Positions 15,401 through 21,400 of a stretch of 64,000 nucleotides of DNA are shown piece after piece. Each line of letters opens with the position of its first letter. Within the stretch, counting starts at the first letter, position 1. The position numbers and the translations under genes were made by a program. The stretch covers positions 103,145,584 through 103,209,583 of the forward strand of contig NC_079212.1 in NCBI RefSeq assembly GCF_029633865.1, read 5' to 3'. The DNA comes from Lampris incognitus (Eukaryota; Chordata; Actinopteri; Lampriformes; Lampridae). Below the pieces are notes generated by a model that was given only the letters and a program-made list of their open reading frames with translations, made no database searches and was not told where the DNA came from.

Positions 15401-18400
15401 ATAAATAGGACTTGTTAGTGACCGCATTCCCAACTAGTGGGGGAAAATGATATCTGTCCAAGTGTTAAAACAGCAATGCAATAAAAATTGATGTTTGAGG
15501 TTGATGAAATGTTTATGTTTTCTCTTATCAAAGCACACTCAAAAATGAAACTGAACAGATCCACTGCAGTGCATCTTAGTTGCTCCTTGGAAGAGTTGGA
15601 TAGGACTTTTATTTATTTACTTTTATTACTTTATTGATCCCCGTGGGGAAATTCCTCATACCATCCGAGGTAGCTCTCTTGTCTTTAATGTATTAATATG
15701 CATATTTTCATGTAAAAAGTTATTATAGGATAAGAATTGAATATCAGTACACAGATAGACTGATAAATGAAAACATCTACCGATGAGTCTTTCCTGACAA
15801 CATGAACGAGCCCCTTACCATAGACCAAAAACAAAACCATGAAAAACAACAACTTCCATTTTATCTCCAAATATGATAAAAAAAATCTGTCCTCTAGCCT
15901 ATATAAAGGGCCAGGAGTGTGTGTGTGTGTGTGTGCGTGTGTGCGTGCGTGCGTGCGTGCGTGTGTGTTAACAATCCGGCCGGTTTCTTTGTCCCATCTT
16001 CTTTCCTTTAAAAGCCGACCCTGGCCTCCTCATCAGGTTTCATTCATTTGGCTCCTGAGTTGTTGATTCAGCCTTGGCTTAAGTCTATTTTCAGCTGCTG
16101 TTTTGCCAGTTCGGCTACAGAGATACTGAGGTTTATTGTCTATTCTGGCAGAAAGAAAGATCGGTTGGGCAATTAATCTTTGTTTCGCTATTTTACTGGT
16201 TCTTTAACAAGCAGGGAGCAACTCAGAAGTCTCCCACCATGGTCCATTATGGATTGATTTGCCGTACGAATAGTTTGGTATGGAGTCTTCCCGCTTGGCA
16301 ACGGAGTCAACGCTCGCATTAAACAATGTAACGTAGATAGGATGGATAAAAAAAGGGGTCGTCACTGTGGCATTCATGATATATACATAAATACAGTACA
16401 TGTGTGCTCCAAGAAGGGAATGGGGGAAACTACCGAGAATAACTTGGGTTTTACAAATTCATGTTGTGCTCTGTGTACAGTGAATCTCAGCAGGACGATC
16501 CTCAATTTGTAGACTACGTAGACTTGACCCGCTGCCTCATTAAAGGCAAGATATAAAAATGACTGCCCACCCCCTTTTTTTAAATCAATTCAGCTCTCTT
16601 TTTGCCCTCCCTCTCACTGCCACCCTCCCTCCCTCTTTGTTTTCTTCTTTTTCTCTTTCTTTTTCTCTTTCTCTCCACTTTTCTCCATCTCTCCCTCAGC
16701 CGGCTGGAGAGTAAGGTTCAGATGCTGGAGTCTCAGCAGAGAGGGGCGCTGGACAACATGAAAGAGGAGAAGAACCGACTACAGGTGAATTCAGATAACC
16801 CCTTTTTTTTCATTATTTCAAAGGCTGTTGTACACTGTGGCATGCTGTCAGCATACATTTAGAATATGCTACACATAATGACTAAAATCTACTCACTAAC
16901 AGCACAAATTAAATATGATTTTCAATTGACCTTTCTCAAAGTCCCACCCCCCTTAGTTACTGTTGCTACGCCCATCAAGCTTGTCAGACCCATCCAGGAA
17001 GTAGCCGGAAAACACCAAAACACAAAGGAAGAAATCAGTGCATTTCCTGAGAAAATAAGTAATGTATTTTGGAGTAATCCATTCTTAATATCATCCCATG
17101 CAAGGCAGAAGGGGTTGCAATAACTGGTGCAGTGATGCGTTCAGAATATTAAAATTAACACTAACTTGCGTGTACTAGGCATGACTGTAATTGAGGATAA
17201 AGCTTACTGGTCACAATTAAAGAATGAGAAACCCCATCAACTAATTCCGAAACTCACCCAAAATAACACTGTGGACTAATTGTCTTCTTGCCAAGTTAAA
17301 TGTTTCAGTTATCATTGGAATCTTTTCCATAATCCATTGGCAACATCGTTGTATTATAGTGTTGACTTTGGCCAGGTGTTATTTTATCCAGGCTATTCAG
17401 GATGTTCTGTATGGGTCCGAGGGTGGCTGGGGAAACCCAAGGGGCCAGGGGAACCGCCCCGCAATTTTTTTGACCTGCGGACCTGGACCAAGATTTTCAA
17501 CAAAATAAGGCCGATGAGAGGCCTCCAGAGGCAGACTGACTTTTTCAAATACCAGTCCCCGCCTGGAGCTCACGGAGGGGGAGAAAAGTTTAAAATAGGC
17601 CAGATATGAGGAGGGCAGACTGGCCAGAAACCATCCCAGGGCCCAGCTGACCCTCTCCATAGGTCTTTATGATCTGAAATGAGAGCTGGAACCTGGCTGA
17701 CCTGTGAATTAAGATAACAAAGTTATCTATCGTTAAGTTAGGTATCTCTGGCCACAGACTAAGCTGGTTACATTCACGAGATACCTTGATAATGTTATTT
17801 TGCTAGTCAGTAATATGTTGATTTGTTGATAATGGTAATAATCATTGTGTGGGTAAATGTAACAGTGATAATACTGTAGCGATCACAGTTGTGTAGACTC
17901 GCTAGCCCTTGGCTAATGGGTCAGACCCTTTAGTTGACTGGTTAGCACAGTTGCCCGTGGTGCAGGTGACCCAGGTTCGCATCCCAGCTGTGGCGATTCC
18001 CAGCTGCCCCCTGAATTCACTACAATGGTGTCAGAAGTGGGATGGTGAGACCGTGAGGCCATCGGAAGCGTGTGCACCCAGAGGTGTGAGGTAACTGGTA
18101 TGCTGAAATGCAGAGGCACGCTTCCCGAAGGAGGGGAGGTAGTGTAACGATCATGGATGTGTAGACTTGCTAACCTTTGGCTAACGGGTTGAACCCTTTA
18201 GTTGACTGGTTAGCGCAGTCGCCTATGGTGCGGGTGACCCGGGTTCGCATCCTGGCTGCGGCGGTTACCGGCTGCCTCTTGAGTTCGCTACACTGGTGTC
18301 GAGTGGGATGGTGAGACCATGAGACTATCGGAAATGCATCTGCCCAGAGGCATAAGGGAGCTGGTATGCTGAAGCATAGGGACGCGCTTCCCAAAGGAGG

Positions 18401-21400
18401 GGAGTAGTGTAACGAGCATAAATGAGTAGACTCACTAGCCGGTTGGCTAATGGGTCGGACCCTTTAGTTGTCTGATTAGTGCAGTTGCCCATGGTGTGAG
18501 CAACCCAGGTTCGCTTCCTGGCTGTGGCGGCGCTTCCTGGCTGTCCCCTGAATTTGCTACATTGGTGTCAGAAGTGGGATGGTGAGACTGTGAGGCCATC
18601 AGAAATGCGTGCAGCCAGAGGTGTGAGGGAGCTGATATGCTGAAGCGTAGAGTGCATTTCCCAATGGAGGGGGGGTAGTGTAATGATCATGGATATGTAG
18701 ACTTGTTAGCCCTTGGCTAATGGGTCGGACCCTTTAGTTGACTGGTTAGTGCAGTCACCCGTGGTGCGGGCAACCCGGGTTCGTGTCCCGGCTGCGGCGG
18801 TTCCCGGCTTCCCCCTGAATTCACTACAATACTTTGGCTATATTAGCTATCGATAATAGCTAGTAGCAAGCTTACCTTGGAGCAGACGAAGGTATTTTTG
18901 TTGATTTTGCTTGGATTAAGCTGGCTATGGGGTCTTCCTCACTGCTAAATCCATTGCTTCTTGCATTTTGGTTTTCGAGAAGGGAAAGAAATACACCCCC
19001 TCCAAACTTTTTGGATACCTAATATCCAATTAGAAGGTCCTGCAGGTACAACATTTCAGTATTTTGCCATAAGCTGAAAGCTTGACAGACCTACCTTACA
19101 AACCTTAGAAACCTTTGCTAAGGTGGGATTGGACAAGAGCCGTTCTGGGGTGGTAATTTGTGAAAGATCAATTGAGAAACAGTCACATTAAATTCTTTAA
19201 ACCAGTGATCAAATTATTTTTAAAAAAGGAAAAAAGTACAGACTTCCTTTAGTAAAGGTAAGACATATTTCAGCAACAGACACCCATAAAGATAAAAATG
19301 ATCAACAACGATTAAAAAATAAAATGATAAAAGTGAATTTAATATGGATAAAGAAAAGTTTATTTTGATATGTGTTATCCTTTCTCTATCAGTCTCTTGT
19401 CAGGACCCAGATGACAGCCATTGAGTCACTGGAGAGGCAGCTGAGGATTGCCAGTAGCAACAACACCGCTCTTCAGAGACAGCAGGCCCAGCTAATGGAG
19501 TCTGTCCATACACTTATCAATATGGTGACTAGTACTACAGGTATACAGAGAACACACACACACACACACACAATTCTTGTTGATTTTCAGTTGCTTTCAA
19601 TGCTAAATGCTTATTTTTAGGCTCTTATGCAACAAATTACAGAACAGTCCTAATCAAATACAGAACACACGATTGGCTTGGGATTTTTTTTTTTTTACAT
19701 ATCCATTAATCCTGCTTGTGTATTTTTATGTGTATATGTGTCTGCATTTCCATGTATTTCTGTATGTGTGTGTGTGTGTGTGTGTGCGCCTAGGGTCACC
19801 TCCTAAGAACCACAGATGGCAGGACTGTGCTGAGGCTTATAAGGCAGGCCACTCCATTAATGGTCAATACCACGTCTACATAGGCAACATGACTGAGCCC
19901 ATACAGGTAATGAAGTGCCGGGTCGAGAGACATGACCAAATTACATTTCAGTTTTGGCGAGTCCTTTAAGTTTTGCCTTCCTGAAGGTTTACTGTGATAT
20001 GGAAACGAGTGGAGGAGGCTGGACGGTGTTTCAACGAAGAATGAATGGCAATGTGGATTTCCAGAGGACCTGGAAAGAATACAAAATGGTGTGTCTCTCT
20101 CTCTGTCCATCTGTGTTTTTATTTTTTCATTCTATCTATCTGTCCATCTATCTGACTATCTTTATTTATCTGTGTATATCTATTTGTCTTTCTGTCAGTC
20201 TGTATGCCTGTTTAGCTCTCCATCTCACTGTCTGCCCTTATGCTTATTTGTCTGTCTACTGTCAATCAATGGCCTCTTATGGTCCTTATCTCAACTCTGT
20301 ATTAATAGCTGTCTGTCTTTTTCCTGTCCTGCTTCTGTCTTTTTTTCTTCTTTTTTTTTGTCTTGACCTTCAAGAACTTTGTACTTAATTTTGGCTTTCA
20401 AAAACAGAGTGTGGATAAAGTTACTATTATTAAAATGACTGTTGACAGACAAAAATTGGCAATTGCACAATAACGAAATAATCTCTCTCTCTCTCTCTCT
20501 CTCTCTCTCTCTCTCTCTCTCTCTCTCTCTCTCTCTCTCTCTCTCTCTCTCTGTGTAAAATGCATTGTGATTCAGTATTCATTTCGCCTACTGGATTGTC
20601 ATAATTGTCATATGCACCCTTTATGTGGGAGTTCCAGATTGTCTGTTTGCAACACCAAGGTACCCAATGGGTTGCAATAAAGTTGACCTTTACCTTGTTT
20701 CTCTCTCTGCAGGGTTTTGGGGATGTATCAGGTGAGTATTGGCTGGGAAATGAGCTACTCTACCAGTTGACCAGCCAGGGTCAGTACTCTCTCAGAGTGG
20801 AGCTGCAGGACTGGGAGGGAAACACGGCACACTCCAGCTATGACCGCTTTACCCTGGCCAGTGAGAAACAGCACTACAGGTAAGCAGGGGTACATATTTA
20901 CTGTGCACTGCACATACATAGACATGCACATATACATACCTGTAAGTGCAAATAGATACATGAGCAACTGCACAGTATATAGACACTCTCATACATACAC
21001 ATGCACATACATGCAGACACACATATGTATGAAATTTTCAGTGAAAATAATAACAATAGGCATAAATAAATGATACATTAGTCAGTACAATCAATCTGAC
21101 AGTGGGTCTAGAAGGTGGCCAATGGTAGCTGAGGCCACCCTCACCCTTTTGCCACCCCACCATTTAAAGTAAGAAAAAAAATTTGTTAGTGGTCATGTCA
21201 CATAACAATGAACATTACAAGGATACCTTACCAAACTTTAACCTTATGTATCAGATCAGCATTTTAATACAGGAATCCTTACAATTTTATGCCCTGAGCT
21301 TGTCTCCAGATATTTCATAATGTTTTCAACTTTCTGTGTCTTCAAACAGGCTGCTCTATTACATCCAAAAAGTCATTTGCATTGTGTCTAGTTATCCTCT

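Follow-up and report, generated by a model that had tools for sequence, protein, structure and literature searches.

Helenus is the name that Kojima (2024; PMC10886601) gave to a kind of short, non-coding retrotransposon with long terminal repeats (LTRs), and a four-LTR tandem array at 17875-18828 of a 64-kb stretch of the genome of the fish Lampris incognitus (NC_079212.1, 103,145,584 to 103,209,583, forward strand; all 64,000 nucleotides are hereafter the window) very probably belongs to this type, a judgment that concerns the identity of the array and leaves its origin aside. In the sections of the 2024 article on which we draw, Helenus elements are 311-1263 bp long, most families carry a box A reading TRGCY, vertebrate members have primer sites for tRNA-His, -Leu or -Lys, and integration in animals leaves 4-bp duplications; the LTRs of fish members were aligned with tRNA-Val-CAC. 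Those sections count 5575 LTRs and 2618 internal regions in zebrafish, where tandem arrays of LTR-11_DR were observed. They describe a copying cycle of the usual LTR-retrotransposon kind for Helenus, in which the enzymes are provided in trans, in animals by Gypsy elements (as judged there from primer sites and duplications), and they present transcription by RNA polymerase III (pol III) as expected, not demonstrated. Helenus is mentioned again in a 2026 meeting report. For the plant element Cassandra, the relevant portions of PMC7215508 describe short arrays of ~3 LTRs parted by internal domains, together with multi-unit read-through transcripts. The kind to which our array belongs is thus not new, and its host may itself be on the published species list.

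Anatomy of the tandem array

The array runs in the strict order LTR-internal-LTR-internal-LTR-internal-LTR, head to tail. Its four LTRs measure 150, 150, 154 and 150 bp, with termini TGTA...TACA, and its three internal stretches (118, 115 and 117 bp) each directly abut the neighbouring LTRs. Tandem Repeats Finder independently returned a period of 268 with 3.6 copies and a score of 1157. The outer borders read ATAC / TGTA ... TACA / ATAC, one 4-bp duplication for the whole array; the chance of a 4-bp match at fixed ends is ~1/256. Only units 1 and 3 keep an exact 18-nt primer site, TGGTGTCAGAAGTGGGAT; these were the two sites found in the window when up to three mismatches were allowed (0.08 expected), and the site of unit 2 is damaged by a 2-nt deletion. 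We take this sequence to be the complement of the 3' end of tRNA-Leu plus CCA, with human tRNA-Leu-CAA as the reference. One LTR-internal-LTR element spans ~415 bp and is non-coding, and the longest open frames over the array are 62 codons (forward) and 97 codons (reverse). A blastn search of the array against the window yielded no further copy there. The initial annotation of this stretch had described four ~150-bp units, an ATAC duplicated at the outer ends, and three ~116-bp internals with primer site and purine tract; the units and the duplication (17871..17874 and 18829..18832) were recovered, as were the internals, apart from the damaged primer site of unit 2. The features are as follows.

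17871..17874, + strand: left target-site duplication ATAC, a site type as in other genome copies
17875..18024, + strand: LTR 1, 150 bp, TGTA...TACA
17931..17941, + strand: box A-like TAGTTGACTGG in LTR 1, at LTR position 57, 0 mismatches to TRGYNNANNGG
17974..17984, + strand: box B-like GGTTCGCATCC in LTR 1, 1 mismatch to GGTTCGANNCC
18025..18142, + strand: internal stretch 1
18026..18043, + strand: primer binding site of internal stretch 1, exact (human tRNA-Leu-CAA as reference)
18128..18142, + strand: polypurine tract preceding LTR 2
18143..18292, + strand: LTR 2, 150 bp; box A at 18199-18209, box B at 18242-18252
18293..18407, + strand: internal stretch 2; primer site at 18294-18309 with 2-nt deletion
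18408..18561, + strand: LTR 3, 154 bp; box A position 18465-18475 degraded, box B at 18508-18518
18562..18678, + strand: internal stretch 3; exact primer site at 18563-18580, purine tract at 18665-18678
18679..18828, + strand: LTR 4, 150 bp; box A at 18735-18745, box B at 18778-18788
18829..18832, + strand: right target-site duplication ATAC

Genome-wide distribution of the family

The LTR end joined to the primer site has 3,852 exact matches in the 1.48-Gb host genome, whereas the reversed control has 0; exact primer sites number 5,346 overall. We read 114 regions, comprising the 39 best matches to unit 2, the 35 best matches to LTR 4 (both sets selected by similarity) and the first 40 regions in the list of LTR end plus primer site matches (the map-order sample). 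These regions contained 165 chains of element parts: one internal accompanied two LTRs in 63 and a single LTR in 30, 49 were lone LTR pieces, and 23 were of other composition.

Duplications were compared with the counts expected from shifted controls. Exact 4-bp duplications border 11 of the 26 complete-ended two-LTR copies (0.23 expected), and at least 3 of 4 bases match in 18 (1.87 expected); the other 8, with two or fewer matching bases, weigh against our interpretation of these copies. The corresponding figures for the map-order sample alone are 2/9 and 5/9. Three of six complete-ended chains with 3-4 LTR matches also have exact duplications (L015, L019 and L049; 0.03 expected), and the remaining three (L062, L073 and L122) adjoin further interior sequence and may be incomplete. 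Exact duplications were present at 3 of 18 complete single LTRs. Eight of these 18 adjoin primer-site or purine-tract remnants and were dropped, and the ten free of such remnants under the rule of our script contain all three exact duplications; one of the ten, L107, has TTGGCG beside the LTR and is probably not a true solo LTR. The 17 exact duplications, read on the locus strand, include ATAT (6), ATAC (4) and GTAT (2), and these 12 are of the window type. The genome search suggested in the initial annotation thus turned up further units, solo LTRs and arrays, with 4-bp duplications.

At least two internal matches stand in one chain in 3 of the 40 map-order regions (L093, L112 and L113) and in 14 of the 114 overall. 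At L097 (1164-1690), four LTR pieces lie head to tail without internals at a period of ~135 bp, possibly a step from retroelement to satellite. Oppositely oriented units of the element lie close together at L041, L047, L044 and L107, and are perhaps nested or self-targeted insertions. Outside the host, no copies were found in viral contig, genome contig and phage collections, which hold only viruses and prokaryotes and are little informative here.

Promoter-like boxes in the LTRs

LTRs 1, 2 and 4 of the array each have box A at LTR position 57 and box B at position 100, a spacing of 43 bp, with one mismatch in total, a pattern equalled by 0/300 dinucleotide shuffles of each LTR. The boxes of LTR 3 are degraded, the best total being 3 mismatches, and 11 of 300 shuffles were equally good. 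GGTTC occurs in all four window LTRs and YGG in three. For the family as a whole we used 149 complete LTRs (the 4 of the window and 145 from fetched loci) and 745 mononucleotide shuffles. Boxes A and B with up to two mismatches were present in 128 of the 149 LTRs compared with 1 of the 745 shuffles, and the spacing was 43 bp in 124; because the 149 LTRs are related copies, the figure of 128 reflects retention of the boxes and not independent origins. Box B had the highest non-CpG conservation (0.967) among the inner LTR parts compared. Compared with human tRNA-Val-CAC, LTR 2 scores z 6.6 and LTR 1 scores z 4.7, and this tRNA was the best by z of three compared for these LTRs. These results agree with the initial proposal of an animal TRIM (terminal-repeat retrotransposon in miniature) like Cassandra, each LTR carrying a promoter of tRNA type; judged from sequence, transcription by pol III would start near LTR position 50.

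Several results weigh against such a promoter. The non-CpG conservation of box A (0.938) falls within the range of the other inner parts (0.862-0.951) and is no better than that of the LTR 3' part (0.951), and the box reads TAGTT, not the TRGCY of most Helenus. The match to tRNA-Val-CAC is absent in LTRs 3 and 4. An Rfam search gave no tRNA down to E = 5, ARAGORN in its bacterial setting likewise found none, and the folded tRNA-like parts were no more stable than shuffles, so the fold check that the initial annotation had envisaged came out negative; the tRNA-like part of the LTR, as far as its sequence tells, is not a working tRNA gene. The array also lacks TTTT, and a pol III end in the 3' LTR is hard to place. 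For a single unit such a lack has no statistical weight (0.68 of shuffles share it), and among the 149 LTRs and 89 internals TTTT is present in 5 and 0, respectively; since the shuffle fraction is high and related copies are not independent, we claim no selection against it. A search of the array for TATA[AT]A, AATAAA or ATTAAA was also negative, and the latter two motifs are absent from all 149 LTRs and all 89 internals. With TTTT, AATAAA and ATTAAA missing from the array, read-through transcription is plausible. A Cassandra-like 5S promoter was considered and rejected, as no 5S match was found in 17800-18900.

Candidate helper elements

Among the first 14 map-order places where the primer site is not preceded by ACAN, 12 are the same element. 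The other two (L123 and L124; G000:C1:773439-773839 and 777185-777585) belong to a different LTR-like family whose 18-nt tRNA-Leu primer site is exactly the same. The L123 interior is found at 40 places among the matches listed, namely itself and 39 others at 93-97% identity, and this family is a possible lead to a helper. The nearest listed primer site lies 21 kb from any of five Gypsy-type matches on C1, an uninformative distance given that 150 of 22,550 candidates were covered. A Gypsy-type reverse transcriptase/ribonuclease H match (L028 118-405; G000:C13:28657717-28658004) lies ~0.8 kb from the array at L028.

Age of the array

LTR pairs within the array differ by 15-21% (LTR1-LTR4, 16%) and internal pairs by 17-24%; in other elements the median difference between LTRs of one copy is 14.7% (34 pairs; 9.9% for the 7 pairs of the map-order sample). 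The array internals differ from one another more than do 83-99.7% of internal pairs from separate elements (0.17-0.24 versus a median of 0.13), or 68-97% at non-CpG sites, in a comparison set enriched for copies chosen by similarity. Within the array the LTRs diverge by 0.177 on average and the internals by 0.196, and the bootstrap intervals of the two means overlap. We counted 11 two-against-two sites, in line with the 9.8 (95% 5-15) expected under a star tree of two rate classes. With the mean distance of a window LTR to its array mates as the yardstick, 30-54% of the 145 other LTRs, mostly similarity-chosen, lie nearer to that LTR, as if the array were no tighter than the family; against this, only 10-17% of the 41 map-order LTRs (2-7% at non-CpG sites) do so. 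The three internals of the array are more distant from one another than they are from 62-90% of the 21 internals in the map-order sample (48-67% at non-CpG sites). Mean internal distances are 0.046 in the L028 array, where 0.4% of other pairs are closer, and 0.063 in the L073 array, where 0% are; internals so nearly identical indicate that recent local amplification does occur in the family. By these distances the window array is old and, unlike L028 and L073, bears no sign of recent local copying, and its LTRs look like one subfamily. The array is also decayed, and is very probably a TRIM of the proposed 'TRIMp3' type.

Other elements and genes in the window

A pair of repeats at 52736-53315 and 4930-5493, 80% alike, includes one copy with a 5S rRNA-like head (RF00001, 64 bits) and is probably a 5S-derived short interspersed nuclear element, another pol III-type element in the window. 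Four copies of a ~420-bp repeat, ~80-84% alike and on both strands, lie at 991-1412, 3766-4186, 24092-24508 and 50150-50564. Tc1-type transposon copies at 6416-7639 and 55145-56366 are 98.5% alike, and one has a 363-codon frame matching transposase domains. Remains of non-LTR retrotransposons, with reverse transcriptase or endonuclease matches, are located at 12468-14357 (-) and 29965-31311 (+). Exon matches to angiopoietin-1 were detected at ~19.8-20.1 kb (weak, E 7e-4, with a fibrinogen-domain match) and 26.7-26.9 kb, and one to serine/threonine kinase 3/4 at ~57.3 kb.

Discussion

A local satellite or tandem repeat that merely resembles a retroelement would account for the 268-bp head-to-tail period and for the four LTR pieces at L097, and yet we give this explanation virtually no chance. 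It is refuted by the duplications and the dispersal of the family: LTR-primer-site matches are scattered in their thousands, two-LTR copies have 4-bp duplications, and multiple internals in one chain are confined to three of the 40 map-order regions. Duplications directly outside ~415-bp copies indicate complete insertions, neither satellite nor a piece of a longer element, and the latter possibility was rejected on this ground. The two outcomes that the initial annotation had named as fatal to its proposal, a satellite and an internal piece, are therefore not what the dispersed copies, 11 of 26 with exact duplications, reveal. A plain TRIM transcribed by RNA polymerase II, its A and B boxes being a chance or fossil likeness, is consistent with the negative Rfam and ARAGORN results, the lack of stable folds and the failure of conservation to single out box A. 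We regard it as quite unlikely, because both boxes are kept in most of the LTRs compared, nearly always at one spacing, box B has the highest non-CpG conservation of the inner parts examined, and the array lacks TATA[AT]A, with AATAAA and ATTAAA absent throughout the LTRs and internals compared.

As to how the array arose, its one-subfamily LTRs and the lack of recent local copying favor, on these distances, entry as a multimer or multiplication early after insertion; Kalendar (2020), in the pertinent portions of PMC7215508, describes both ways of forming arrays in Cassandra. An origin after insertion, by unequal recombination of the LTRs in a single ordinary two-LTR copy, is a real possibility, if a little short of an even chance. 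This route also predicts the single outer duplication, it is discussed for BARE1 and Cassandra in the same portions of PMC7215508, and the recent local amplification at L028 and L073 is in keeping with it. On the other hand, the internal pairs are not younger than the outer LTR1-LTR4 pair (the intervals of the means overlap), and the two-against-two sites fit a star tree, with which an early post-insertion event is still compatible. The mutual divergence of internals 1, 2 and 3, greater than that of most separate-element internals, could instead mean that units from different parent elements were joined by template switching between co-packaged RNAs, and LTR 4 does differ from the other three at 2 of 6 variable non-CpG LTR columns. 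However, that internal comparison leans on similarity-chosen copies, all four LTRs share an allele at 3 of the 6 columns, and the window LTRs resemble one another more than they do most map-order LTRs, so we consider such a mixed parentage improbable. In a somewhat doubtful but possible scenario, the lack of a pol III terminator and of a poly(A) signal in these LTRs would let pol III transcripts continue across successive units, the multimeric RNA would be reverse-transcribed, and ready-made arrays would be inserted. The initial view that one insertion was multiplied by recombination or template switching fits the data, although the routes it offered are not separable.

The life cycle that we envisage as most likely for the Helenus-type element of the array would begin with pol III initiating just upstream of box A in a 5' LTR and producing a transcript that crosses the internal stretch and continues into the LTR beyond it. 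The minus strand would be primed by tRNA-Leu bound to its primer site, and the plus strand by the purine tract; reverse transcriptase and integrase would come in trans from an LTR element that is itself autonomous, probably one of Gypsy type in animals. Integration would create the 4-bp duplication, often at ATAT or ATAC. A multimer may have been inserted, or the multiplication may have occurred early after insertion, and the units would then have decayed together. In this scheme we infer pol III transcription, the helper and the multimer-forming step, and what we observed is the anatomy of the elements, their duplications and dispersal, the retention of the boxes and how old the array is compared with other copies.

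This work adds a controlled genome-wide check of a Helenus-type family in one fish, covering duplications, solo LTRs and promoter boxes, and an age test for one such array. It makes testable the pol III drive of these elements and the insertion of arrays as multimers. If the read-through scenario is true, tandem arrays would be normal products of the life cycle rather than of later recombination.

Among the described systems, PbTRIM of the red harvester ant (PMC3532108) is an animal TRIM that likewise has 4-bp duplications, mostly ATAT, and a tRNA-Leu primer site. It differs in that the text of PMC3532108 uses neither 'tandem' nor 'array', and its passages on the element describe no tRNA-like promoter. 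Cassandra, as portrayed in the cited portions of PMC7215508, resembles our element as a TRIM that encodes no protein and has a pol III promoter within its LTR; that promoter is of the 5S and not the tRNA type, the hosts are plants, and the primer site is another. Helenus, as far as the sections cited above describe it, is the closest counterpart. The box A sequence differs from that of most families, and the likeness to LTR-11_DR is one of described features. Of the features that mark membership, the length, the two boxes, the primer site with purine tract, the duplications, and the dispersal with solo LTRs were found here. The array shares with Helenus the organization of a short non-coding LTR element with boxes A and B and 4-bp duplications, and also the tRNA-Leu primer type, the resemblance to tRNA-Val, a copy number in the thousands and the occurrence of tandem arrays.

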